DNA of 64,000 nucleotides from Erodium maritimum. Lineage: Eukaryota; Streptophyta; Magnoliopsida; Geraniales; Geraniaceae. Below the pieces are notes generated by a model. It had not been told where the DNA came from and searched no databases. It worked only from the letters and a program-made list of their open reading frames with translations. The position numbers and the translations under genes are program-made. Where the stretch lies: NCBI GenBank assembly GCA_963921825.1, contig OY997589.1, positions 83,560,523 to 83,624,522 on the forward strand, written 5' to 3'. Below are positions 2,551 to 22,268 of this stretch, one piece after another (the stretch's first letter is position 1; each line of letters opens with the position of its first letter).

Positions 2551-2580
2551 TTAGAGCATGTACAACAGAAAGGACATTGG

Positions 2581-2696
2581 TGAGGTCCTGGGAGTGCAGA
2601 ACTTGTGCTGACTGGACAAAAGTCAGGGAGTGGGAGTGCAGAAAAGTGGGTGTTTTGCAACAGAAAGGACCTCTGAGGTCCTGGGAGTGCAGAACA
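2581..2696. repeat. Subterminal direct repeats of Harbinger A
   Basis: Three spaced copies of a motif close to GAGGTCCTGGGAGTGCAGAA occur at about 2581-2602, 2626-2643 (diverged) and 2674-2695. A second motif, CAACAGAAAGGAC, appears at about 2563 and 2658. The same motifs recur in the matching arm of element B (about 16220-16345). Repeated subterminal sites of this kind are candidate binding sites for the transposase or its Myb partner; that role is inference. Confidence 0.6.
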
Positions 2697-2922
2697 ATGC
2701 TGACTGGATTATTAATTGATATTTTGCTGTTTTATTTAATTCGTTATCAGAAACCGTTTAAATTGTTTATAATTTAAACAATTTTGGAAATTAAATAAGT
2801 AATGACAAACAATACAAACAATAATTAATAAATAAATTCAACACGAATATAAATGAACTTCTAATTTTATTCAACCCATTTTAATACAACACCAAAAAAA
2901 CCAGCTCCACGAGCACAAACGA

Positions 2923-4309
2923 CTACTCGTCGTCATGGAAACCAGCTCCAAATCGACCCCATAAGTGCTCCATAAGATCTTTTTGTAGTTGATGGTGGAT
3001 CTCAGGATTTAGGACACTTTGTTGAGCATCCACTCGTTGCTGGTATTCCAATGGCCCTCCGTGGTGCCATCGTTCTGGTGGTGTCCAATTCGGCATTTCT
3101 GGAGGTTGCGCGTACAACAACTCTTCATCCCCATACTCGTACCGGTCGCACTCATCCTCTACAATCATGTTGTGTAGAATTATGCAAGTGTGCATGATAT
3201 CAGCCAAAAAGTTGGGGCTCCAAGACCGAGCGGGACGGGAAATGATTTTCCACCTTGCTTGAAGTACTCCAAAAGCCCTTTCAATATCTTTTCGAGCACC
3301 TTCTTGCCATTTAGCAAACAACTTCTCTTTGGGCTCGAAGGGATGCCGAATAGTCTTCACGAACCGTGCCCATGTTGGGTAAATGCCGTCCACCAAGTAA
3401 TAAGGTCGGTCGTACCGATGCCCGTTGATCTCGTACTCCACAGCTAGCTCACGGCCGTAATAAGCGTCTTGGAATAGGTGGCTGTTGTTGAGGACGTTGA
3501 TGTCGTTGTTCGATCCAGCCATCCCGAAAAATGCATGCCAAATCCATAAATCACGGGACGCTACAGCTTCAAGCATAATCGTCTTGTCCCCGTGGTGACC
3601 TCCCCGTCCATGGGCTCCCTGGTCTTCGGTTGGGCAGTTCTTCCACGTCCAATGCATACAGTCAAGACTCCCCGCCATTCCGGGAAACCCTCGGTTGTAC
3701 CCTTCTCAGAGTAAGCGGTCCATGTCAGCCGGTGTGGGTGTACGCTCATACTCGGCTCCGAATACCTCAATGACGGCCTTGCAAAACTTACGTAAACATT
3801 CAAGTATGGTGCTTACCCCCATGCGCAGAGTTTCGTCCAATGAATCGGCCGCGGACCCATACGCAAGCATCCGTATAGCGGCGGTGCACTTCTGTTCCGT
3901 TGATAAGCCCGGTCGTGAGGCAGCGTCGGGCTTCTGTTTGAAGTAGCTGTTGTGAGCCTTCACCGCGTCCATAATCCGTTGGAAATGTGGTTTTGCACAT
4001 ACGGAACCGCCGCCTGAACATTTCAGGGCCATATAGGGGTTGTTCGTCAAAATAGTTCGCCATCAATTGGATGTGGGCTTCCAAACGACCTCTGTTAATC
4101 TCTCGGCGCATTGGTTCCCCACAGATGGCCCTCTGGACCCTTGGCATTACTCTCTGCATGTGCCTATCCATCATCCGCCGGAATCGTCGCTCAACTGGCC
4201 GCATTTGGGCTGCCATCTCCTCATATGTCGGCAGTTGGGCTGCCATCTCCTCAAACGTCGGCATCCGGGGAGCCAGCTCCTCGTACGTCATCTCCTCAGC
4301 GTCGGACAT
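2923..4309 (-). pseudogene. PIF/Harbinger DDE transposase (HARBI1-like), disrupted
   Basis: This was a DDE superfamily 4 transposase, which cuts and joins transposon ends in the nucleus. Read from ATG at 4309 it has 462 codons if one extra base is discounted. Motifs in order: RRRFRM near residue 100; KCTAAIRMLAYG; GFPGMAGSLDCMHW with the first Asp at about 216; GSNNDINVL; YYLVDGIYP with Asp at about 308; and DIERAFGVLQARW with Glu at about 343, 35 residues after the preceding Asp. The acidic residues are therefore all kept. Two lesions break it: one extra T in the run 3991-3994 shifts frame, and a TGA at 3706-3708 stops translation just before GFPGM. The N terminus has a short tandem repeat of the type PTYEEMAAQ. 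Decay is light, so movement may be fairly recent. Confidence 0.93.
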
Positions 4310-4408
4310 AACCTCGTCGTCGGATATTTTCGAAAATAACGAGTAGGAAGTGAGAATGAAAGAGTGAAAGTAGAGAATGGTGTGAGAAAAATGAGGAATG
4401 GGGTTGGG

Positions 4409-4417
4409 TATTTATAG
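4409..4417 (-). promoter_or_regulatory. TATA box of the transposase gene
   Basis: CTATAAATA on the minus strand, about 95 bp upstream of the ATG at 4309, sits in CCCTATAAATACCCA. The identical context is found at 14385-14393 in element B, ahead of the Myb-like gene. Confidence 0.7.
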
Positions 4418-4715
4418 GGTTTAAATTATCTGATTTTTGAATTAAAAAAATAGCCGTTGGAACGACTGTTGGAAGGTCAGACTCGACGCCGCCACGTGAC
4501 GGCACAATTGAGGGCCACGCAGCACAGGGAGCGAGGAGCGCGGGAGCGGCCAGCAGGTAGCGAGAGGGGAGCGAGGACCGAGGGTCGGGGAGCGAGACTG
4601 CGTTTTTGGGGAGCGGGAGCGCGTTTTTTCGGCCCTACAGCGGAACGACCCGCAGTCCTCAGACCGGACGGCGCTCGGAGCGGAGCACGGGTGCGTTCCC
4701 TTGTGCATGCTCTTA

Positions 4716-6013
4716 GATCCACTGCACTTATTCAGTTATTCTATCATCACATCTCCTCTACGTGTGCTCCATCGTTTTCCCTGCCTAATATAAAAATAAG
4801 CATTCGTCAAACAATAAAACAAGGTGGTTACACCATTAGATCATAAAAGACAAATAAAAGATCGTCTTCACTGATTAATTAATTGATTAATCAATATCAT
4901 TAGCTAATCAATTGTTTAGACGTAAGCAACGAAGCGAGACATGCGGCGACTCACGTGGGTTAGTCATCAATGATGGCCGTCGTTTCGGTTTTGTTGTCGG
5001 GTAAAAGGAAAAGAAAATCGTACCGTCGAATCGTTCCATGGTCGGCCCCACGAACACATCCGTGCTGTCCGAATACCACGTGGCGGGACTTGTCCCGGCG
5101 ACCCTGACCATCTTCGATACATCCGAAGCCCTTGTGTCAGAACGACATTGACTCGCCAGTTCCATTCTCCACCTCTCAACTATTTCTCACATTTTCATTT
5201 TTCCCCCGAAACTTCCACGAAATTGCAACATTTTCCCGTTTTTGAATTTCGCCCGAAGTTTCCCGGAAATTATACAACTTTTCCATTTTGGTTATATATA
5301 ACGAAATTGATTTGACATAATTGGGAAATTTAGCATATATTTATTTTTTAATTTATGAAATAATGACAAAAAAAATATTTTGATCAATTCACTTTTCATG
5401 ACTTATAATCATTTTTCTTGATAATTATATAAAAAAATATATGTTAGATTTCATGTTCTTCTAATATGAAACTGGAATTTCATTGATATGAATGGAAACT
5501 TGGAATGAGGCAATAACAAAAAGTGTAAAAAATAAAGGGGTGAGCCAGAGTTACAAACAACAAGTTCGAGAGCGAGTCCTATTGCTAACATACTTCGCTA
5601 TTCTTGGTAAAAATTTAGGGGATAGATCCTCTTGATAATAGTTGCATGATTGTAGCTCATTTCGCTCTTTTTTTTTACTATACCTAAAAAAGTTGTGGTG
5701 TTTGATAAACATACAGATCTCTCGACAGAGACCTCTCAGAGACATCTTGAAGAATATCGACATCTAGGGAGAACACCAGCAAAATAAAGAGGTTTGGGAT
5801 TGAGTGGTGCCCAACCTTAATAGGGTCGGAATAGAAACAATGGGATAGATGGGGGAGGTGGTGGTGGTGGTGGTGGTGGTGATGGAGAATTAGTGATAGA
5901 TGGTCGAGACGATACCCATAGAGGAGAGCGGCGCTTTCGTCGTAAAAAATTAGGGCCGGCTAGTGAGAGCTCCATTCCAAGAAAAGTTCACTCAAGTCTC
6001 TGTTACGTTTCAT
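4716..6013. other. Intergenic sequence, no supported gene
   Basis: It contains a moderately GC-rich stretch (about 4900-5170) followed by AT-rich DNA. Small open frames lack any recognisable domain. A perfect (GGT)8 microsatellite lies at 5857-5880. Confidence 0.5.
5857..5880. repeat. (GGT)8 microsatellite
   Basis: Eight perfect GGT units, likely polymorphic in length between individuals. Confidence 0.85.
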
Positions 6014-6474
6014 GTAAATTTATGGGGTAACCCCGTTTTCTAACTTAGTTTTAGCTTTGTTCCAACTTTCCTAACCGTGACTTACCTTTCGTGACAATTT
6101 CCAACTACGAACTATTACCTTTTTACACGGGCCAACGAAATCCGTCAAAGTTAACAGAATTGTTAGTTTCTTGTGTAAAATGTCGAAAATTCCCTACAAT
6201 CTAACTTATATTGGCTGGCTTTTTCGTGACGATTCCCAACTGTGAGCTGTCACGTTTATGGATTAAATACATTTTTTTCAAAATTTCTTCTTTAATAAAA
6301 GGTATCAGATCTGATTTTTATATTATTTTTATGGATTAAATACTTCTTTCACAATTTCTTCTCTGATAAAAAAAATAAAAATTACATAAATCAAAAAACA
6401 AAATGGATGAACCACTCTCTGTTTGTATCCCTAATCTTCATCAACTTCACTTATCTCTTTTCTGTAATGAAAGG

Positions 6475-8770
6475 TGCAATTTTATTAACTCAAATATCGG
6501 CTACAAATGAGTGCATCAGGAAGAAGTCCATGATCACAAAATATTAAAAAAAAATCATTATACTATAAAGAGCCCCAGTAGGTCCCTTTATAAAAACCTC
6601 TGAGACAAAATATTCAGTACAACTGGTGTTGGAAATGTCATAAAGGCGTTCTGAAAATAAAACTAAACTATGACGAAACCAATGATTGCTGCTCAAGGTG
6701 TAGCCTTCATGCTCTATTCGCTATATTAAACCGAACATGCGATCATTGATTTCAAGAGATGGTAGAGCTCTTTTCAAGGACCCCTCCCAAGGCCAGTCCT
6801 TGGAGCACTGAATCCCTTTCATTCCTCCATGCATGCAACTTGCCCGCCCTGTCCTGATTATCCAAGGGTTCTCTAGTGGACCCTTTCTTAACTCCCATGG
6901 TTCCTGCTCCAACTCCAGACTCAATTCAAGCTCCAAGTCCAGTTCTATCTATGTGCTCACCCAGGACCAGGGCGTTAGCTTTCCCGCTATCTAAGGGTCT
7001 GCCAATTACCAAGTTTTTCCAACATGGATCGATCGAGCGGGTCGCACCGTTAGGTGCAGTAATAGAGGACACTATTAGGCCCCTACCTAGAGACAAGGGC
7101 CTTAGGTGCAGAATTCGAGGATACTAATGTACGAGAAGCCTGATCGTCCCAATCTATGGCATATACCCTAGATTGACGGTCCTTCTGGAACTCCAGCATC
7201 AAGGATTCGAACTGGGGAGTACCCATCACCTCCCGGTCGCACTCGGACACCATGCGACCTATCATCCCACAATTATAACAAAACGCATGTAGTTTTGTAT
7301 ATATAAGAGTGACACGAACCAGGTTAGGACATTCTCAAAATTGAACTAGGCGGTGTCCATGAAGGGGGCGCTCCACAAGATGCTAAAAGCGAACCTTTAC
7401 TGATCCTCCCCAACATGTACCCTATTGATCGCACGGGACATGCACATAGAGCCCCAACATTGCACCAATTGTTTGTCCAGTGGTTTTGGTATAGACCAAA
7501 GAATGGATGCGACGGGCATGCACGTGTAGTTGGATCCTATCTAGGGTGAGGGGCTCTCTAGCCATCAGGTTCAGGTCACCATACAGTAGTGGTCTCCCAT
7601 CGAAGCACCACAGTTCGTTATCTCGAACCCATACCTGAGCTCTCTCTGTCTCGAAGTAAAACCCGAAGATCCCTGGTCCGATGTTTTTGATCACCATCCC
7701 TTAGGCTGATTTACCACATTCCTTGGTGATGATCAAAAGGAGAACTTATTTCTGGGGCAGCTTGGACGACCACAACTTACCCATCATGGAAAATCGTTGC
7801 TTAGCCAATATGGATGGGCTCACCGGAATGTACAGTACCATTACCTCAACCTCCTCATCTTCCTCCAAAGAGAAAGTCGAGATGTCATCTTGAAGGTTGA
7901 TCAGTTGGGAGTCTAGAAATGCCAGAGAGGGAGGCGTCATCGAGATTGAGCAAGCTACCTTGGGTCTGAAGGTTTTGTAGTTGTGGGTTTTCCTTGGTGG
8001 TGGTGTGAGCAGCGTCGGGATCATAGGGACACGAGCAGTGTTGGAAACCCTGACCCCCTATCAGAGAGCAGCCATCTCCGCCCTTCTTGGCTCCGGTTCT
8101 CTCCTGTTCAGGCATGGGGGATTTCCCTTTAAGAGGGTCCCGGACCAGTTGGGGCAATGGGTTGGTGGCGGGTACTATAACAGGCGGCGCAGTGATGGTG
8201 AGAGTCGAGGCGGCAACGATCAGAGAAGATGTAGTGATGGGAGGAGCGGGTTCCACCGGTGGTCGGAGAGAAGGGGCAGTCATAGGAAGCAGCGGAGCCT
8301 GCACATCACCGGGAGCGGGCGCCCGGGCCTTCAACTCGACTGTGGGGCGGCAAGATGGAATTCACCAAAACCCTAGCGTTTCTTGTAGAGGAAGCTAGGG
8401 TTTGGTTCTTCGAAGGCCGACCCCGTCGAGCTTTACCCAGAGGTTCAGATGTAACGGGGGAGAAGGCCACGGCTTTCGTAGTCAGGGGAGGAAGGAGAGG
8501 CGTTGTGGAGGGGAGGGAAAGAGAGATCGGGTGGGAGAAGAATGCTTAGCGTTTCTTCTGCACCTCGGTTTAATGGTAGGCCTCATGGCCAACGAGGGAC
8601 GAGGTGGAGGCACACGTGAGAGAGACTGCACTAGGGTTGATTGTGATGGGACAAGATTGACGAGGCTAGCAACAGTCAAGTCGACGATATGGGTAGGAGA
8701 CTCCATAGGTGGGGTAGGGTTTTCTCGAGAAGGAGAGCTCGACAATCGCGAGAGAGTTGTTTTGTTGTAT
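6475..8770 (-). mobile_element. ORF1-only LINE-derived element (copy a)
   Basis: The minus-strand order is a short CT-rich leader (about 8770), an ORF1-like pseudogene, a short 3' UTR, and a terminus reading AATAAAATTGCACCTTT at about 6475. The 35910-38071 element has the same organisation and the same terminal motif (TTAATAAAGTTGCACC). No endonuclease or reverse transcriptase lies between ORF1 and the tail, where LINE ORF2 should be. It sits inside the Mutator-type element. Ends are approximate. Confidence 0.65.
7083..8745 (-). pseudogene. DUF4283 / zinc-knuckle gag-like protein (LINE ORF1), broken
   Basis: The N-terminal part (about 8745-7885) is Pro/Ser-rich in one frame; the rest lies in another frame with several stops. 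The DUF4283 nucleic-acid-binding region is recognised by LEEDEEVEVMVLY, MGKLWSSKLPQK, GPGIFGFYFETE, and LWCFDGRPLLYGDLNLMAREPL, which align with the homologous gene at 36396-37984. A zinc knuckle follows at about 7240-7290, CYNCGMIGRMVSEC: three Cys are present but the His is replaced by Arg. Such proteins package retrotransposon RNA. At least one frameshift and several stops make it non-functional. Confidence 0.72.
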
Positions 8771-9544
8771 TTAGAACAAGATTATCGATGGCTTCACCTA
8801 TCTCTAATCTCATATTTATCTTATATTTACAAAAAAGAAAAATTAGATCTCAATCATCCTCACGCATTCCCCAATGGATGAACCATCATCAAATCCACCA
8901 TCCCAAAGTCCCCCCCACCCTAAAAAAATCGCAACTCGTGTACCGAAACCCCTAATTTCCATCTTCATCTTTGATTCAAAGAAACACTTGAATCAAAACT
9001 CGTGTACCCAAACCACTTTCATCATCTTCCCAATATTTAATGAGTTCTCTGATGAGATTCGTTCAGACCCGACCGTGTTGTAGACAAAAACACGAAGAAC
9101 ATGCTTGTGATTCCTCATCCGTGTAACAAGTGGGTAGTTCAGCGTTAAGAATTGTCACGAAAGGTCAGGCAATATGAAGGAAATACATTTAAGAAATTTT
9201 TATTGTGCATGTGACCAGCACGTGTCCAAAGTCCAAACATCAGCGTTAGAACGGACGGATTTCGTTAGTCTGTGTAAAAACGTGATAGTTTGCAACTGGG
9301 AATTGTCACGAAAGTTAAGTCGCAGTTAACAAAATAAAAACAATGCTAAGACTAAGTTAGAAAACAGGGTTTCCCGTAAATTTAATTCAAACTAAAGATT
9401 TCATGCTTAAATTCTAAAACATAAAGAATTATAATTAAATTATAAAAATATATTAATTTTCATATCCATAAATGTTTTGAAAATTGAGGATATGAAAATT
9501 TATATATTTTCTATTTTCGAAATTTAAATTCTAAAGTTTTTTTT

Positions 9545-10150
9545 AAAACGAGTAATTGGGGTATTGTATTACTGTGAAACATAAACCATACAGGTTAGGG
9601 CATAACAACCCAGGATTCCAGATATTAGTCCAGGTCGACCGTAGTCCACCAGGCGCTCATGGATCTGTAGAAATAGTCTGTTTGTGTTCGCAGATCTTAA
9701 CGCAGGAGTTCCCCTTACCGACATTTTAAAATAAAAGAAAAAATATACCTAAACCAACAAAGCCAAAGACCTAACCGAACTAAAGACATGTAATAAGCAA
9801 CATTGAAGAAAACTGGAAATAGTGATCTGAGTGCGGCTTTCCCGAGACTCCCAGCAACGGTAGTCCCAGGTCTGTGGGCATAGTCCGTAGAAGGACCCTC
9901 CCACCCCCGTCGGGTCTTCTCATTCTTCCGAAGGAGGTTGTGACGCCTTCGCCTGTGGATACCGGACCAGAACGACGACTTGAAGTACGTCGTGACCCTT
10001 GTGTTGCAGTACTCCGGCGCCCCGAGGACGATCTCGTAGTCTAGCGTGATGGCAGTGAGCTTTGCCTCGTCGTTGACACAAGCCAGATCCGAATTCGTCC
10101 ATGGATGGACTGGTGAAGAGAACCACAGCTGGTGACCTGATCGGGCATGG
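9545..10150 (-). mobile_element. 5'-truncated LINE-type fragment (tail family CGTTTTAAAA)
   Basis: The minus-strand 3' end reads ACTCGTTTTAAAAAAAAC at about 9545. It is shared with plus-strand copies ending near 27935 and 41635. An ORF1 C-terminus ending in ASQPPSEE lies at 9920-10126, matching VSQPPSEK in the copy at 27361-27552. The remainder is 3' UTR. The body is interrupted at 10151 by another LINE fragment and may resume near 10807. Confidence 0.6.
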
Positions 10151-10806
10151 TTTTTTTTTTGAAAAGCAATACGAATTTTTTTATTGCGCACTCAACCTTT
10201 GGTTCTAAGATGGATCCAAAAGGAAAAGGACCATAAAGATCCCTCTCACCAAACACAATAGGAACCAAACTAAACGAAACACAGTAAAAAAACGTACACC
10301 AAAGCCCACCCGGTTCCAAACAGTTGGAGTCCCACCTAGCCCCTTACCCCTCGGACTGACCCCAATCCGCGTCCCTTCCTCTGCAGACACTTCAAACACT
10401 CCGACGGGTCCTCCTTCCAACCAGCAAAACTCACGCCCTGCACTAGCAAGCCGGCGTCTTAAGCCAAACCATATGTATAATTTTGAATTCTAACCATCAC
10501 AGCGTCCAAATGCGACATATGATGATTGAAAAGGGCCGAATTCCTCAACAACCATAGAAACCACATAACCGAATAACCCGTGTGTAGCCAAGCCACCCTC
10601 CATTTCTTAGACCCTATACCCTGTCATACGCACAACAGTTTTCCCACTGTTTGGGGCATCACCCACCTGACCTTCCACCACCCCATAATCCTGCCCCACA
10701 CCGCCCAAGCCACATCACAGTGCAAGAGGATATGATCTATTGCTTCAAAAGATGCCATGCACATTGGACAAAACATTGAGGCTCTACCAATGATCGGTGG
10801 GGGTTT
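10151..10806 (-). mobile_element. LINE 3' fragment with RT zinc-binding (zf-RVT) remnant
   Basis: Minus-strand translation from about 10785 gives FCPMCMASFEAIDHILLHCDVAW, the Cys/His signature of the zinc-binding domain after plant LINE reverse transcriptases, followed by in-frame stops. The element ends in GCAATAAAAAAATTCG and a ten-base A run (T run 10151-10160). The 5' part, including reverse transcriptase, is missing, the usual result of aborted reverse transcription. Flanking TGATCGGGCATGG and TGATCGGTGGGGG are only a weak candidate duplication. Confidence 0.72.
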
Positions 10807-10909
10807 TTGGGACGGTGGCCAACGGGGAACAAATCTTCAGATCCGGTCCTCGTGATGGCGATGACGATTGAATTCTAAAGTTAAAGTTACTATTTTGACA
10901 GGAAATATA

Positions 10910-12362
10910 ACGAAAGGTTAAGTTTGGAATGTTTTTGTGCAACTACCGATAAAATATGCTCCAAGCTACATAAAGAAAATACTTTAACATACCAAAAAAA
11001 GCTCTCCACACACCTCCAAGTGAGGTTCTCTCTACCCTACTTAGGGTTTCCAACCGTCTTCGTCGCCGCCGTCGCCGCTCCACCGTCAGCCACCGTCCCT
11101 CCTTCATCGTTTTCAGCCCCTTCCTCATTGTCGTTCCTCCCTTTCGTATCAGCAACATGGTTCTACCCTTCTCACGCCACCATCATGATGGCCATCCTCC
11201 TAGGGCACCATGGTCGCCGGACCAATATCCCCATCTTCGCTCCTTCGCTCCCGGCCATCTGCGACCCTCCATAATCGACCACCCCAACCCCACTTTGATC
11301 CTGCATAATCATGGTTGGTCCATGCATGGTGCGATCCACGGTCCGACGTGGTTGCACCCGTCTCCCTGGAGTCGATCCGTACCGGAGCCTGTACGGTCCC
11401 TCGCAGCCAGTCACGACAACCGCCGCCCCCTACCAGACTGGGACCAGGAAATTCGGCGACAGGAGGCCTTGTATCAGGGTCTGGCCCCACCCCCCCACCG
11501 GCGCACACCGCGATCCCGTCCTACCAATGGGATCCGGTGCAATGCTTCTCCTGGTCTTCGGCTTATCAACCAGGGTTTGCTCACTCGGTATTGGGCTACA
11601 CACTAGAAGGTCTCCTCACTCCACGGGGCCAGCAAATCCTAGGAGATTCGCGAACAGTAGGATCCATACACACCATGATGCTCGGAGTACAATTGTTAGG
11701 GTTTTGGTCCCGTCTCCAACAATAGCCAAACACCATGGCAAGGAAGCCTCAAGCCCTAAATCACATCTGAAGATCGGGACAAAGTGGAAGATACCTGATC
11801 CAAGAGTGGGTGACCTGAAGGACTGCACCTTGGCCCGCCGGGGGATCCTGCGATTCACCACTGCCGTTGGACCAAGACCCATGGTGATAAAGACGGGGCA
11901 CAAGCAGGAGTCCAAGAAGCTGTCAACCACTACCGAGCAAGTACAGGAACGGGAAGTTAGTCCGGGGGACTACAATCCCCCGGGGGATGAATGATCCCCC
12001 GGGGCGGGGGTGGGGAGGACCGTCAGGGACCTATACCCACAGACCCGGGCCGTCTAAAGTCGGGAAGTCTCGGGGAATCCGCAACCCAGGCTATATTTCA
12101 TTTCAGTTTATTTGGTTTAGGGCGAATAATGTTTTGGCTAGTTAGTTTCTATTCTTTCATTTACTTACCTGTCGAAACGTTGGATCGAGGAGCTCTTGAG
12201 TTCGGATCTGTGAAAAAAAAAAAGCAGACTATATGTATGGAACCATGTGCGCCCGATGGGCCACGGCCGATCAGGACAAAAGCTGGTGTCCAGGACTGTT
12301 AGGTCCCTCCTTGTAAGCCTGATAAGATCGTAATACTACTTTTTTCCCGTTTCAAAAAAAAA
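10910..12362 (+). mobile_element. LINE-type element, ORF1-like remnant (plus strand)
   Basis: It starts with a CT-rich leader and TTAGGGTTT near 11030. Open frames follow at 11157-11606 and 11311-11994; the second ends in REVSPGDYNPPGDE, reminiscent of the SQPPSE ending of the family copies at 9.5 and 27 kb. The 3' UTR contains GGGACCTATACCCACAGACC and GAAGTCTCGGG, also shared with those copies, and it ends in CCCGTTTCAAAAAAAAAA at about 12362. No ORF2 is present. Protein function is not recognisable beyond likely LINE ORF1. Confidence 0.55.
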
Positions 12363-12734
12363 ACTTTTAAATATTTCTTACAATTATTTTTAGATTGTCA
12401 AACAACTATACCCTTCATATACCGGTACTTAACTTGACTTAGTATTGGTTAATATTCTTAAATCTTAGGACGAGGAGAATTGTGAAATTTAATTTTGTGG
12501 AGAAGTCACCATTGATGGGTCATATTCAAGCAATAAATTGATTTGGAAGCTTGATATATGCAAGCACGATATATACATGCATATGTTGAGAGAGACATAA
12601 ACAATAGACAACCAAAATATTAATATCAAAACGAAATTATAATTGATTCGGATTTATCTGAAAATATGTTTCTTGAGATACATAATTCGTGACATTGAAA
12701 TGAAAAAAAAATTACTTAAAGATATTTGATTTTT
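12363..12734. other. AT-rich intergenic sequence
   Basis: No gene or motif seen. Confidence 0.5.
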
Positions 12735-14050
12735 TTATCAACAAAATTTTTATTAGAGGTATAAGTTTTCAGAACGAAAATGAGTCATCATCCACATGTC
12801 AACTTACCCACATTTTACTAACATGAAGAAACCAGAGCCCTACCAGGGACAACAACAGGTCTAAAACCAGAAAGCAGAGGTGAAGCAAACTGAGGAGGGA
12901 TTTAACAATTCTAAACCCAACAATAATAAAGAATAAGCAAACTAGAATTTGAGCCAACAAAGAAGGTCTCATAACCAAATTTACCCAACATTAAGCCTAC
13001 AAATGCAAACAAGGACAGAGGGAATCAGAGAAAAAAAGACGATAAATCTCGGAAATCCCATCAAACGAAGACCCCAACACACATGACAAGCACTGTCCTT
13101 CTTCAAGCAAACAACCTAATCCGAAGTGGTAGTGATTCCTACCGGACAGTGAAGAATTAGTTCGGTCCTTCGTCACCCAAAAGGTAACCACCTCTAGCCA
13201 ACACTGAGAGGTGACTCAATGGGGGAAGAACCGGTATCATAGAGATATCGAGCTAATCGAACGTTTCTAACCCTAAAAAACCCCAAACAGACCAAGAGGG
13301 CCGCCGGCCAGCACCGGGAACGACCGGTTCTTGACTCCAAAAACATAGACAATAGGGGTTATAAGGAAAAGAAACCAAACCTCAGACGTGACGACGTAGC
13401 AGGAGAAGCACATGTGAACGTCATGAACCAATGGGCAATAGGAACCCCACCTTCAAGCCAACGAACCTTCGAACAAGACTAAATGCACCAGCCAAAACCC
13501 CTCGTCGGGGGACAACACGCACTGGCGAGGCTCGGGACACTCCGAGAAGAAGAGAAGGTAGAGGACCTGAGGTAGATGAGGCCCACACGCCGTCAATCAA
13601 AGTCCTGGAGAAAAACTCGAGCAGATCCACAACCATCAAACCAGTTGAAAGGCGTCCCACTTCAGATCCTAATCGAGACGCCCTCGGACAGAAGTCAACT
13701 TCGCGGTAAACATCTAGAAAAGAAACGGGAGCGAGTTAGGATGGAAGCTTGACCCTAAACCTCGATAATCCCCACCAAGGTGATGGGGAAAAGCGCCCCA
13801 CAAGGAATAGGAAATAACCGGCTCGAAAAGGGAGAGATTGTCGGAGCTAAGGGAGAGTGAAAAAGAGGAGCGGGGAACAGAGAAGGCGAGGGGTTTAGGA
13901 GGTGAAGAAAGAACGTATCTGAGAAAAAGAAGCCAGATCCAAGAAGAGGGTGAGGAGACGAAGTCAAAAACACCACTGACGACTTCCCAATCGACCAAAA
14001 TGACCAGAAAATCATCGGCGGTCACCAGGATTCCGGGTTTTAAACGAAGA
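12735..14050 (-). mobile_element. Non-coding A-tailed retroelement (GATAAAA-tail family)
   Basis: The minus-strand 3' end, CTAATAAAAATTTTGTTGATAAAAAAA at 12725-12760, matches the tails of copies ending at about 34035 (minus) and, on the plus strand, at about 44928, 53308, 55466 and 56452. The other end has a CT-rich leader near 14050. Internal frames are short and unlike known proteins. The left boundary is good; the right boundary is approximate. Confidence 0.45.
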
Positions 14051-14384
14051 AAAAAAGAAAAATTAAAGTAATGTTACTTGATTATTTAAATATTACATAT
14101 TCAGACATCTACAATACTCTCCTTAGAGCACGCACAACAGAACGGCCCCGCTCCCCGCGCGCACGGTCCGAGGACTGAGGACCGACCCGTTGTGGAGCCG
14201 GAAAAAACGCGGTCCCGCTCCCCAAACACGCTCTCCCACTCCCCGATCGTCGCTCCTCGCTGGCCGCGCTCCTCGCTCCCTCACTGCGCTGGACGCGTGT
14301 GGTGCCGCCACATGTCCACCCGACCGTTGGCAACGGTCAATAAACGGCTACTTTTTTTTAATTAAAAAATCAGCAAAAAAAACC

Positions 14385-14393
14385 CTATAAATA
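14385..14393 (+). promoter_or_regulatory. TATA box of the Myb-like gene
   Basis: CTATAAATA lies 107 bp ahead of the ATG at 14500, in the same CCCTATAAATACCCA context as element A. The following leader (CACACCAATCTCCACTTTC) is also alignable with that of element A. Confidence 0.7.
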
Positions 14394-14499
14394 CCCATCC
14401 CTCTTCTCATTTTTTCCACACCAATCTCCACTTTCACTATCCAACTTCACTCTCTCCTTCCCAGATTCTCCTCTCTCGTTTCAATTATTCTCGTGAAAA

Positions 14500-16024
14500 A
14501 TGTCGGGCGACGCTGGGTCTCGTGCACAATCAGCTGGTGACGAAGTCGGATTCAGCTCCGACGAACTGGCACGAGGTTTCGAAGACATTCTAATGGACAA
14601 TCGGGACAACTCCGCTTTCTCCCCATACTCGCAACCGGGGTCGAGTTAAGGTAAGTGCAAACTTATTATTTATGTAACGTAATTTTTTTAATTAAGTTAT
14701 TGTATTAATGCATTCTACTAATTTTTTGTTATTAATTTACTATATTAATGCATTGTTAATTAATTTATTGTATTAATCTTTTGTATTAGGGCAATACCGT
14801 CCCCAACAATTTCAAATGGCGCCAGGGTTCCAGGTGCCATTACAATTTGGTATGCACCCACAAGGGTTCCAGACGCCACCGTTTGGGATGACCCCGCAAG
14901 GGTTCTCGCTGCCACCCCAATTCTACAACTACGAGGGGAACCCACTACCCGACGTACAAATCCCCCAAACATCCTCTGCCGGACCTTCCCAACGACGAGC
15001 CCGAGCCCGAGCCCGACCCCGAGGCCAACCCCAAGAACCAGATCTGGAGGGCCGGACATTCAGCAAGCAGGAGGACCTCCACCTCATAAGTTGCTGGTTG
15101 AGTACTACAAAAGACCCCATCAAGGGAAACTCTCAAACTGGCAACACATTCTGGTGCGAAGTTACGAGGAAATACAACTCGAAGGGAGGTCTCCCAGAGC
15201 GCCTCTAGCCAGCTATCAAGAAACGTTGGCTCAGAGGTTCTGGGCAGACAAGGAGGTTCCTCGGCTATTTGAAGAGGTCCAAGGACGAAAATCCGAGCGG
15301 CGCCAACCCGGAAGAGCACATGAGACGTGCGAAGGAAATGTGGGAGGCTGCAGGGAAAGTGGGTGACCACCCACTAAGGTTCGACTTGGATCATTGGGTG
15401 ATGAGGCTCGAGGGCGTCGTGAAGTTCACTGCCAAGGAGGGCACAATGGGAAATGTCCACCGTCAAGTACGCCAACAACGACAACGGTTGGATGAGGCTG
15501 GGGCTTACAGCTCAACCCCACCCACAAGCACAAGGGAGGAGTGCACACCTCTCAGTGGTGAGTCACAACCACCAGAATGGGGAGCAAGCGACAACTACGA
15601 GGGGACTCAGGTCCCTCTAAGCGACACACCCCCATCCCCTGAGGCCGCCCCAAGTCCCCCTAGTCGAACCCGACCGCAAGGGAAGAAGGCAGCGAAGGCC
15701 TCAAACAAGTCGACCGTCCTCACGGCCCAAATGTCTGTAGTCGCCGACCTGGAACGTACACGGTTGGAGGCTGAACGTACAAGGGAGGCACGCTTGGCAG
15801 AAAGGACCCGCTTGCTAGAGAAGATACACGACAAGTGGGAAGCAAGCATGGCCTTCTACATGACTTTGTATAACACTGATACCTCCAGTTTCAACGAAGA
15901 ACATTTGGCAGAGCACAATGCATTGAAGAGACGAACGCGAAGAGTCTTGGATGCCCTTGAAGATGAACTTGAGGCTCTTCGACGACAACCACCACCACAA
16001 CTTGGGGATGCTTCCACCTCATAG
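14500..16024 (+). pseudogene. Harbinger Myb/SANT-like accessory protein, disrupted
   Basis: This is the second Harbinger protein, a DNA-binding partner that helps recruit transposase to transposon ends. Predicted exon 1 is 14500-14650 (donor GTAAGT), the intron is 14651-14789 (ends TTGTATTAG), and exon 2 is 14790-16024; phases agree and total 462 codons. Order: acidic N terminus; Gln/Pro/Phe-rich repeats (PQGFQ, PQGFS); an RARARARPRG basic patch; a SANT/trihelix-like domain from about residue 139 (TFSKQEDLHLISCWL, TFWCEV, then AIKKRW); a NAM-associated-like stretch (PSGANPEEHMRRAKEMWEAAG); and a C-terminal Arg/Glu coiled coil (about 361-450). TAA at 14647-14649 and TAG at 15206-15208 interrupt it. 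A shorter start at 14816 would avoid only the first stop. Confidence 0.85.
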
Positions 16025-16366
16025 ACTTTTTTATGGGTTGTATTAAACGGGGTTGAATAAAATTAGGAGTTCATTTATATTCGTGTTAAATTTATTTATG
16101 AATTATTTGTTGTCATTAATTATTTATTTCCAAAATTGTTTAAATTACAAATAACTTAAACGGTTTCTGATAAAGAATTAAATAAAACAACATAATATCA
16201 ATTAATAATCCAGTCAGCACTGCTCTGCACTCCCAGGACCTCAGAGGTCATTTCTGTTGCAAAACACCCACTATTCTGCATTTCTAGGACCTCACTTTTG
16301 TCCTGTCAACACAAGTTCTGCACTCTCAAGACCTCACCATGGTCCAATCTGTTGTTCATGCTTTTA

Positions 16367-17720: not shown

Positions 17721-19079
17721 TCATCGGAATTGGGCGCCGCTGTAGGTCCGGCCGAAGGACCAACCGGCGGGAGCAACATTGTTGGAAACAACCGTCCGGC
17801 CGTCGCTGGTGGTGACCTTGAAAGACAGGCTCTGTCCGTTGAGGTAGTTGTTGCTCTGCCAGTTCTGACCCCAGTTCCGGGACATCGCTTGCCACCCCGA
17901 CCGGGACCCTTTCACGGCGACGGAGTGCACATCTCCGGCGCCTCCGACGTTGGTGATGAGCACAAGGTTGAAGTAGGAGTGTCCGTTGATTGTGAACCTT
18001 ATTCCTCCCCTCCTCTGGCAGGGTATCCTACAAGAAGAACCCACAAAAACCCAATTCAGTTTCAGCCAAATGACCCTAAAATTGGATTAAAGATTCGATT
18101 TTTAAGTTCCAAGTGGCAATTTCGTAATTATAAGAACCCACAAAACCCTAAAATTGTGTTAAAAGTTTCGATTTTTTAGGTTCGAGTGGCAATTTCGTAA
18201 TTATAAGAAGAACCCACAAAACCCAGAACAGTTTCAGCCAAATGATCCAAAATTGGTTTAAAGATTCGAGTGGCAATTTCGTAATTACTCAAGAAGAACC
18301 CACAAAACCCAGAACAGTTTCAGCCCAAATGATCCCAAAAATCGGGTTAAAGTTTCGATTATTAAGTTCCGAATGGCAATTTCGTAATTATAAGAACCCA
18401 CAAAAACCCTGAATAGTTTCAGGCAAATGATCTCCAAAACCAGGTTTAAGGTTAAGTTTCAGTGGCAATAAAAACCCAGAACAGTTTCAGCCAAATGACC
18501 CCAATTTTTTTGGTAAAGTTTCGATTTTTAAGTTTGGAATGGCAATTTGGTAATTACCTTCGGTAAGAGACGGGGACGATTCCGGCTTTGTACTTGGCAA
18601 TGTGTTGAAAAACGGGCTGCGAGAGGTCGAAGTGTTGCTGAGGAGGGTTGCACCAGCCGCCGGCGTTGTTGGGGAGGGCGTTGTTCGGCGGGCAGAAATT
18701 GGTGGCGGTGACGAGGATCGAACCCGGGAGGCACCACTTTCCGTCGTTGACGCACCGGATCTCGAAGCAAGCGCCGCAGCTCATGCCATTGTTGAACAGC
18801 GCAGTGCTCAGCGCCGCCGTGTTGGTGCCGTAGCCCTGGCTGTACAGGTTCCCATACCCACAAGCCCCACCTGAAAAAGATCGAAACTTTAAGCATCGGA
18901 GAGCTCAAAAACATGAATCGGGTCTATCTTTGACTATGTTAATACATACCCATTGTGCCGGAAGCGTCTCCGCCGCCGTAGAAGGTGGCGTGAGCCTCGC
19001 TCCAGCCTCCGCCGCCGTACCCATTGACGGATGAGACCATTGCGAGAAAACCCATTAAGAGAAAAACAGAGAGAGCCAT
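17721..19079 (-). CDS. Alpha-expansin (EXPA)
   Basis: Secreted wall-loosening protein that disrupts non-covalent cellulose-xyloglucan contacts during acid growth. Coding exons are 19079-18950, 18870-18558 and 18027-17721, all GT-AG with consistent phase, giving 249 residues, the usual EXPA length. Residues 1-20 form a signal peptide ([20 protein letters not shown]). An N-terminal GH45-like domain carries [14 protein letters not shown], conserved Cys, the alpha-type insertion GGWCNPP, and HFD at 123-125. The C-terminal CBM63-like domain carries RRGGIRF, WGQNWQ, and [13 protein letters not shown]. All hallmarks are intact, so it is probably functional. One extra Arg follows the usual GAQF end. 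The second coding intron is unusual: it is built of tandem repeats. The paralogue number cannot be assigned. Confidence 0.96.
18028..18557 (-). repeat. Expansin intron made of about six tandem 75-105 bp units
   Basis: On the minus strand the unit runs roughly from GTAATTACGAAATTGCCA through AATCGAAACTTTAA and TCATTTGGCTGAAACTG to TTTTGTGGGTTCTTCTTG. The core GGCAATTTCGTAATTA (plus strand) or a variant recurs near 18114, 18188, 18271, 18374, 18465 and 18540. The first unit begins exactly at the 5' splice site and the last ends exactly at the 3' splice site. Confidence 0.85.
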
Positions 19080-21521: not shown

Positions 21522-21524
21522 TAA

Positions 21525-22265
21525 GAACAAGAACAGTGGATCGAACCGTATTCCTTTCCGCACACCGAATCGTTTTTTATGGTTCGCGGTCGCGGGTTGA
21601 TCCGTTGTGGGGATCAATTTTGCGACCCGTGAACCAAAAAAATACGATTCGCGGGGAGACGTGCGACCCGCGCACCGTATTTCTGGTTCGCGGGTCGTTC
21701 GGCCCGAGTCGCGCGTCAGCCATCCGTGTTGTGACACGTGGTCATCTCGGTTTTTTTTAAATACATAAAATCAGATTTAACTAAATAAGATTAGTCCAAA
21801 ATTAAAATATAAATAGATAATTTTACACTATAATAAAATATTAGGCAACATTTAAAATGGACCCAATACTTTTTTTTCTAAAATGTAAAACTCATCAGTG
21901 TCCGTTTCCGACGAAATCTTAGTATTTTTTGGATCGAGTCGGGCTCCCGAGCAATGCAATTAAACATACAATGCAATTATTAATTATTTTCTTGTGTTAA
22001 GATTATTTATTTTATTATTAATTATTTTTACCAAAATTTGTTTCAATTTTATAAAACGTGTACTGTTTTAATAAACCATTTAATTAAATCAGCAAAATAT
22101 CACTTCAGCATCCAGTCAACATATACTCACAATACGGTTCCCTATCCGGTCTGTACCATTGTAGAGCACAATTTATTTTAAGGACCGCAAACCGTAATTT
22201 TGCACAGTCAGTATACAGTTTGACCATCCGGTTTGATCATCCTGTTTGACCCATTGTACATGCTC
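21525..22265. mobile_element. Non-autonomous PIF/Harbinger element C
   Basis: TAA duplications lie at 21522-21524 and 22266-22268. The ends read GAACAAGAACAGTGGATCGA and, reverse-complemented, GAGCATGTACAATGGGTCAA. The left arm is GC-rich, as in A and B. The right arm has GTTGACTGGATG and GATATTTTGCTG (reverse complement), which align with GCTGACTGGATT and GATATTTTGCTG near 2699-2732 in element A. No protein gene is present in 741 bp, so it would need transposase in trans. Confidence 0.78.
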
Positions 22266-22268
22266 TAA

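Follow-up and report, generated by a model that had tools for sequence, protein, structure and literature searches.

How can a DNA transposon persist when it carries only one of the two genes on which its superfamily depends? The question is raised by a 64,000-nucleotide stretch of Erodium maritimum DNA (assembly GCA_963921825.1, contig OY997589.1, positions 83,560,523 to 83,624,522 of the forward strand; hereafter the window), in which a first-pass annotation described two Harbinger elements. Element A carries a DDE transposase gene and element B carries a Myb/SANT-like gene. Ping/Pong and zebrafish Harbinger need both ORF1 and the transposase, and virtually all characterised coding Harbinger elements contain both genes (PMC2836001; this and the other papers are cited from excerpts). 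We consider it likely that A and B represent a PIF/Harbinger transposon with a Plant_tran-type transposase whose two required genes reside on separate, individually mobile, high-copy elements with the same kind of ends. The two elements probably depend on each other to move in trans. The known requirement for both proteins in PIF/Harbinger transposition makes movement of both halves by one complex the best reading.

Common arms and unlike coding parts

Read in gene sense, A and B have a common layout, which consists of a GC-rich 5' arm, a TATA-like CCCTATAAATACCC with a leader, a single gene and an AT-rich 3' arm. The coordinates, the TTA duplications (2551-2553 and 4713-4715 for A; 14123-14125 and 16364-16366 for B) and the common arms were found as first described. 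The terminal inverted repeats agree at 12 of 15 bases between both ends, in A and in B, by direct reading. Between the window copies the 5' arms are identical at 247 of 360 aligned bases (69%) and the 3' arms at 299 of 339 (88%). BLAST of A against B recovered the 3' arm with an E-value of 8e-120 (87% over 346 columns) and the 5' arm with 9e-37 (70% over 356 columns). The score was reached by none of the shuffles for the 3' arm (0/100 for the whole arm, 0/500 for its first 100 bases) or for the first 250 bases of the 5' arm (0/500). The similarity extends far beyond the terminal repeats; the first-pass annotation had named its ending there as evidence against the split system. After removal of CpG sites the identity was 70% for the 5' arms and 89% for the 3' arms, so CpG does not explain the difference between the arms. 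The 3' arm holds three repeats, each 26-30 bases long, whose spacings (42 and 51) are the same in A and B; they are candidate protein-binding sites. No convincing motif common to both arms inside one element was found (0 matches beat all 300 shuffles; the best score was reached by 7 of 300).

The coding parts of A and B show no similarity beyond shuffles (100 of 100 shuffles reached the score). A protein-against-DNA search of the window copies found no Myb gene in A and no transposase gene in B, which bears out their description as transposase-only and Myb-only. The borders of the common parts had to be redrawn slightly. For the leaders, said to be alignable all the way to the start codon, clear likeness ends about 50-75 bases upstream of it; over the final 60 bases the similarity is marginal, with 17 of 500 shuffles reaching the score, so that the alignment to the codon itself has weak support. 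The similarity on the 3' side was said to start just after the stop codons. This holds for the Myb gene, where it starts 3 bases past the stop, whereas for the transposase gene it starts about 22 bases past.

The A frame region at 2926-3705 matched PF04827 (289.8 bits, E 1.3e-86) and PF13359 (50.2 bits, E 2.8e-13), both above the cut-off, and the transposase is of the DDE_Tnp_4/Plant_tran kind by these matches. The placement of its DDE residues is putative. Against PF13873 (cut-off 21.7), the B-type proteins of the window copy (16.9) and of L050 (19.2) scored below the cut-off, and those of L048 (21.8) and L055 (domain, 25.1) above it; L048 also has a sub-threshold NAM-associated match. The B protein presumably resembles Pong ORF1. 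As first noted, the family proteins of A and B alike begin with MS, although in A the family start codon, which reads ATA in the window copy, precedes that copy's first ATG by 18 bases. Structure prediction of the B domain from the single sequence was unusable (mean pLDDT 39.8). A search of solved structures returned nothing for the transposase or the C-terminal part of the B protein, and its single match to the B domain was at chance level. An NCBIfam search gave a single match far below the cut-off, and no relative turned up among the viral and prokaryote contigs scanned.

Cargo of the element families in the genome

The host assembly (763 Mb, 40 contigs) was searched with both elements. The best 40 of 5225 candidates were scored for A, giving 47 rows (43 long and 4 short), and the best 40 of 3659 for B. 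Both samples favour copies close to those of the window because only the best candidates were scored. The 43 long A matches are 85-100% identical to the query and lie in 39 loci, all of which were read; 35 reach within 25 bases of both query ends. Myb sequence was found inside 0/43, with the protein-level check covering the first 28 loci. Identical 3-bp flanks were present in 23 of the 24 end-to-end A copies of those 28 loci. The A frame is free of stops and frameshifts in 8 of the 43, and a separate count over loci up to L085 gave 12 open transposase frames of 445-470 codons. Each of the 40 leading B rows aligns with the B element for 1.2 kb or more, and 25 come within 20 bases of its two ends. 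Eighteen B copies of 2.2-2.4 kb were read (the window copy, L028 and L040-L055); B sequence fills every one end to end or nearly, and 0/18 carry both genes. Identical 3-bp flanks occur in 12 of 13 copies with both ends recognised (L040-L055) and in the window copy. An uninterrupted spliced Myb frame was obtained in at least three of the 18 (L048, L050 and L055), a lower bound, with the splice search giving no result in five copies. That each half moved as a separate unit, as the first-pass annotation held, is supported by these two abundant families with their own 3-bp duplications and open-frame members.

Cargo was also counted from the element ends. The A-type AT end (26 bases, at most 2 mismatches) occurs at 538 + 560 places in the assembly and the exact B-type end at 96 + 88 places; the controls gave 0 and 0 in each case. 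For the A-type end, every fifth of 100 exact places listed was taken (n=20), two already-read A copies being swapped for the next place. For the B-type end, every tenth of 100 places listed was taken (n=10), with two already-read copies (one Myb, one transposase) swapped in the same way. Each place was read 2.75 kb inward. The A-type ends led to four transposase elements, one transposase deletion derivative, ten Myb elements, four Myb deletion derivatives and one element with neither gene; the B-type ends led to five transposase elements, three Myb elements, one Myb deletion derivative and one with neither. In total the 30 elements comprise 9 transposase, 1 transposase derivative, 13 Myb, 5 Myb derivatives, 2 with neither gene and 0 with both. 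Many of the genes counted are broken themselves. The 5' arm was reached in 27 of the 30. Four places short of it were read about 2.6 kb further: in one, an insertion of about 2.9 kb interrupts a transposase element, and the extended reads of L059, L069 and L082 showed no 5' arm and no second gene. The first-pass annotation had asked what cargo lies between these arms and had regarded a majority of two-gene full-length copies as evidence against a split system; two-gene copies numbered zero in all three samples, A-type, B-type and end-sampled.

These counts bear on the possibility that A and B are internal-deletion derivatives of a low-copy two-gene element with the same arms, which mobilises both. 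Gene loss is reported in conventional families: in Medicago, orf1 was recognised in 11 of 22 transposase elements according to the text (14 in Table 2), two being judged internal deletions (PMC2213677), and the orchid PePIF1 has defective copies without either one of the genes (PMC6327408). Deletion derivatives of both the A and the B type also exist in the host genome. However, both genes occurred together in 0/30 end-sampled elements, and neither A nor B holds any trace of the other gene. The boundaries of the unlike parts lie near the start and stop codons, so that a deletion origin would require two independent events with breakpoints there, and several copies of both types keep open frames that passengers would not need. 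We therefore judge a hidden two-gene element to be unlikely.

Some copies lie close to one another. Eight of the 39 A loci have another family member in the flank read (L003, L004, L010, L013, L018, L023, L028 and L033). B-type sequence directly adjoins the A element in L018, L028 and L033, and at the L018 and L028 junctions A meets a B element at the latter's GC end, with TAA/TTA common to both. Among the end-sampled places, L058 and L073 are deletion derivatives in which an A-like 3' arm is fused to sequence from the 5' part of a Myb element.

Selection on the genes and exchange of arms

It could also be supposed that the transposase element is sufficient alone, B being a non-autonomous passenger whose ORF1 is useless to A. 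Transposase-only Harbinger elements are listed in other plants: the Medicago family MtPH-E is without orf1 (PMC2213677), and ORF1 is given as not found for ZmPIFa and OsPIF1 in a published table (PMC6327408). The Myb frames are also without an overall excess of silent changes. Against this stand the tested PIF/Harbinger systems, which need both proteins (PMC2836001), and the Myb frames, which are open in several diverged copies, though these were picked for being open. Because of this picking, the openness of a frame is no test of selection. An A element that moves alone with B as its passenger appears very improbable to us.

Among the open transposase frames, dN/dS was 0.62-0.82 in the 12 most diverged of 66 pairs. 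For B, branch dN/dS was 1.26-1.45 on internal and 0.72-0.81 on terminal branches, the B rows being partly open to misalignment. The comparison of internal with terminal branches showed no purifying selection for A or B. Eight open Myb exon-2 frames were compared (L028, L048, L050, L054, L055, L057, L060 and L063), and dN/dS by region was 0.89 for the Myb domain, 1.16 for the N-terminal part and 1.35 for the C-terminal part. Diversifying selection, recombination or misalignment could each produce such an excess of replacements. The C-terminal part of the Myb protein occurs in strongly diverged forms.

Several observations weigh against a two-component system. The substitutions in A after insertion are spread over codon positions 1, 2 and 3 as 605/599/605 and look neutral, dN/dS on internal and terminal A branches is 0.65 and 0.69 with no extra constraint inside, and the eight open Myb frames have a median dN/dS of 1.17 (19 of 28 pairs with dS >0.1). 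Both window copies are disabled. A has a changed start codon, one frameshift and one in-frame stop; in B, exon 2 holds an in-frame stop, and with the usual splice donor a further one falls at the end of exon 1. The assignment of the B protein to Myb is weak at the profile level. One genome was examined, the 30 end-sampled places were chosen by exact ends and all lie on contigs C1-C4, among the matches listed, and 0/30 allows up to about 9.5% two-gene copies (95% bound).

The history of the arms was followed in midpoint-rooted trees of loci up to L075. The tree of 77 5' arms, 45 from transposase and 32 from Myb elements, has a single change of cargo, against a mean of 24.9 and a minimum of 18 with shuffled labels. 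The tree of 82 3' arms (48 transposase, 32 Myb, 2 unlabelled) has six changes, against a shuffled mean of 25.1 and again a minimum of 18. Cargo types are mingled among the 3' arms, whereas the 5' arms sort by cargo. Ten mixed-cargo 3' arm clades of at most 30 tips are listed with ultrafast bootstrap values of 83-99; in one of them the Myb elements L057 and L065 group with the transposase elements L061 and L013 (support 99). The number of exchanges is no rate, because L056-L075 were picked by the exact A-type end, a choice that tilts the sample towards Myb elements whose 3' arm is A-like. Among the closest pairs sampled, L061 and L057 are 97.9% identical over 341 bases of the 3' arm and 78.8% over 226 bases of the 5' arm, and L075 and L072 are 96.5% identical over 342 and 91.1% over 315 bases, respectively. 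The 3' match of L061 begins 22 bases past the transposase stop codon. Chance or convergence between unrelated Harbinger families, for which no support was found beyond the low complexity of the GC-rich arms, is hardly conceivable in view of the BLAST values (8e-120 and 9e-37) and the matching repeat spacing, and is contradicted by the identity of up to 97.9% between 3' arms of elements with different cargo.

A neutral-decay simulation of the window pair is not relied on. It expected about 8 disablements per frame at the 3' arm rate; two were seen in A (P 0.014) and one or two in B (P 0.006 or 0.015). The simulation is weaker than it appears because exchanged 3' arms do not date the genes.

A probable divided transposon and its relatives

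For the two-component system, the following course of events is proposed. A codes for the DDE transposase alone, which would act as the nuclease, and B for the Myb/SANT-like DNA-binding partner (ORF1) alone, which would be the end-binding protein. The GC-rich 5' arm serves as leader and probably also as promoter, and the AT-rich 3' arm serves as the 3' untranslated region (UTR). The Myb protein would bind the arms and recruit the transposase; the ORF1 protein of zebrafish Harbinger binds the ends and also interacts with the transposase, which depends on it for localisation to the nucleus (PMC2836001). Both proteins, presumably needed and acting together, would jointly cut out A and B as well as their deletion derivatives and insert them elsewhere, and a third element of the window, C, would perhaps be moved too; the pair could act on any element that has such ends. 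Recombination between A and B swaps 3' arms, and the recognised ends would thereby stay alike on both. Mobilisation of the two elements by each other in trans, as the first-pass annotation proposed, is supported as an interpretation; we infer it from the known PIF/Harbinger biochemistry together with the common and exchanged arms.

The split may have spread because smaller PIF/Pong/Harbinger elements excise and insert more often, as observed in yeast (PMC10288884). It could have originated by precise deletions from a two-gene ancestor, which needs breakpoints near both start and both stop codons. Alternatively, the interior could have been replaced during repair using the common arms, an origin considered because partial and chimeric copies were seen (L058 and L073).

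Element C carries no cargo. Its 3' arm resembles those of A and B (0 of 200 shuffles reached the score), and its relatives, from the best 40 of 1725 candidates, are 78-100% identical to it. C is possibly a parasite of the A/B system. Tentatively, and with rather more doubt than belief, the whole may be pictured as a multipartite DNA transposon, in which two obligate partner families of high copy number carry half of the machinery each, persist separately, hold their ends alike by repeatedly exchanging 3' arms, become more mobile by being half as long and are preyed upon by the deletion derivatives and by cargo-less relatives such as C, with the Myb protein diversifying under positive selection. 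A transposon of this kind would resemble a multipartite virus in its logic.

The features of the window are collected in Table 1. Apart from these, the C-terminal domain of an expansin was found at 17721-18086 on the minus strand (PF01357, E 1.4e-35), an ordinary plant gene adjoining B. A weak DUF4283 match at 7422-7700, minus strand (E 1.9e-4, below the cut-off), is possibly a retroelement remnant.

Table 1. Positions of elements A, B and C and of their parts in the window
Feature	Position	Strand	Basis
Element A, transposase-only, 2159 bp	2554..4712	-	TTA flanks, terminal repeats and genome matches
A AT-rich 3' arm and 3' UTR	2554..2922	-	aligns with B 16028-16362
A three 30-base repeats in 3' arm	2572..2694	-	spacings 42 and 51
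A transposase frame, disabled in window copy	2923..4327	-	PF04827/PF13359 matches; family frame 467 codons
A GC-rich 5' arm, TATA-like box, leader	4328..4712	-	aligns with B 5' arm
Element B, Myb/SANT-only, 2238 bp	14126..16363	+	TTA flanks and genome matches
B GC-rich 5' arm, TATA-like box, leader	14126..14499	+	aligns with A 5' arm
B Myb gene exon 1, in-frame stop at end in window copy	14500..14650	+	donor GTAAGT aligned, 10 copies
B Myb gene exon 2, in-frame stop 15206-15208 in window copy	14790..16024	+	frame and weak PF13873
B AT-rich 3' arm and 3' UTR	16025..16363	+	aligns with A 3' arm
B three 26-base repeats in 3' arm	16218..16336	+	spacings 51 and 42, as in A
Element C, cargo-less relative, 741 bp	21525..22265	+	terminal match; TTA at 21522-21524 and 22266-22268

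A and B belong to PIF/Harbinger by their transposase, target duplication and ends, and two genes on one element were seen in no copy read. The maize Mu elements have unrelated interiors, and the regulatory Mu element keeps its genes on one element. They belong to another superfamily than A and B and resemble them in having several elements with alike long ends, with repeats of about 215 bp (PMC2774946). The terminal repeat motif described for the PIF-like lineage is G(N)5GTT (PMC2213677); the ends GAGCATGTACAACAG and GAGCATGCACAAGGG contain no GTT on direct reading. Rice Ping/Pong and the miniature inverted-repeat transposable element (MITE) mPing resemble A and B in their Myb-like ORF1, DDE transposase and 3-bp TTA/TAA duplications, and gene-less elements are moved in trans there (PMC2836001, PMC10288884). 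In contrast, both rice genes lie on one autonomous element, whereas here they lie on two, with two-gene copies at 0/30 sampled. Medicago MtPH-E and other transposase-only PIF/Harbinger elements have, like A, a transposase without orf1 between their ends, but the excerpted description of MtPH-E includes no matching ORF1-only family with the same arms (PMC2213677). Rice Jing, also a PIF/Harbinger element, is arranged in the opposite way to A/B, with one frame that codes for both the Myb-like and the transposase domain (PMC6850418). HAL1 (half-L1) likewise codes for only one protein where its family has two (PMC5753468); however, it is a retrotransposon, and its full-length partner has both genes. 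In the titles, abstract starts and passages of the open-licence literature, no report of a pair of ORF1-only and transposase-only elements was recognised.

For annotation, the divided arrangement is a warning that transposase-only and Myb-only elements may be partners and not debris. Autonomy is usually the property of one element, and here it seems to be divided between two dispersed families. The A/B system thereby makes it testable how cooperation lasts among selfish DNA, through copy-number balance, the exchange of ends and cheaters.

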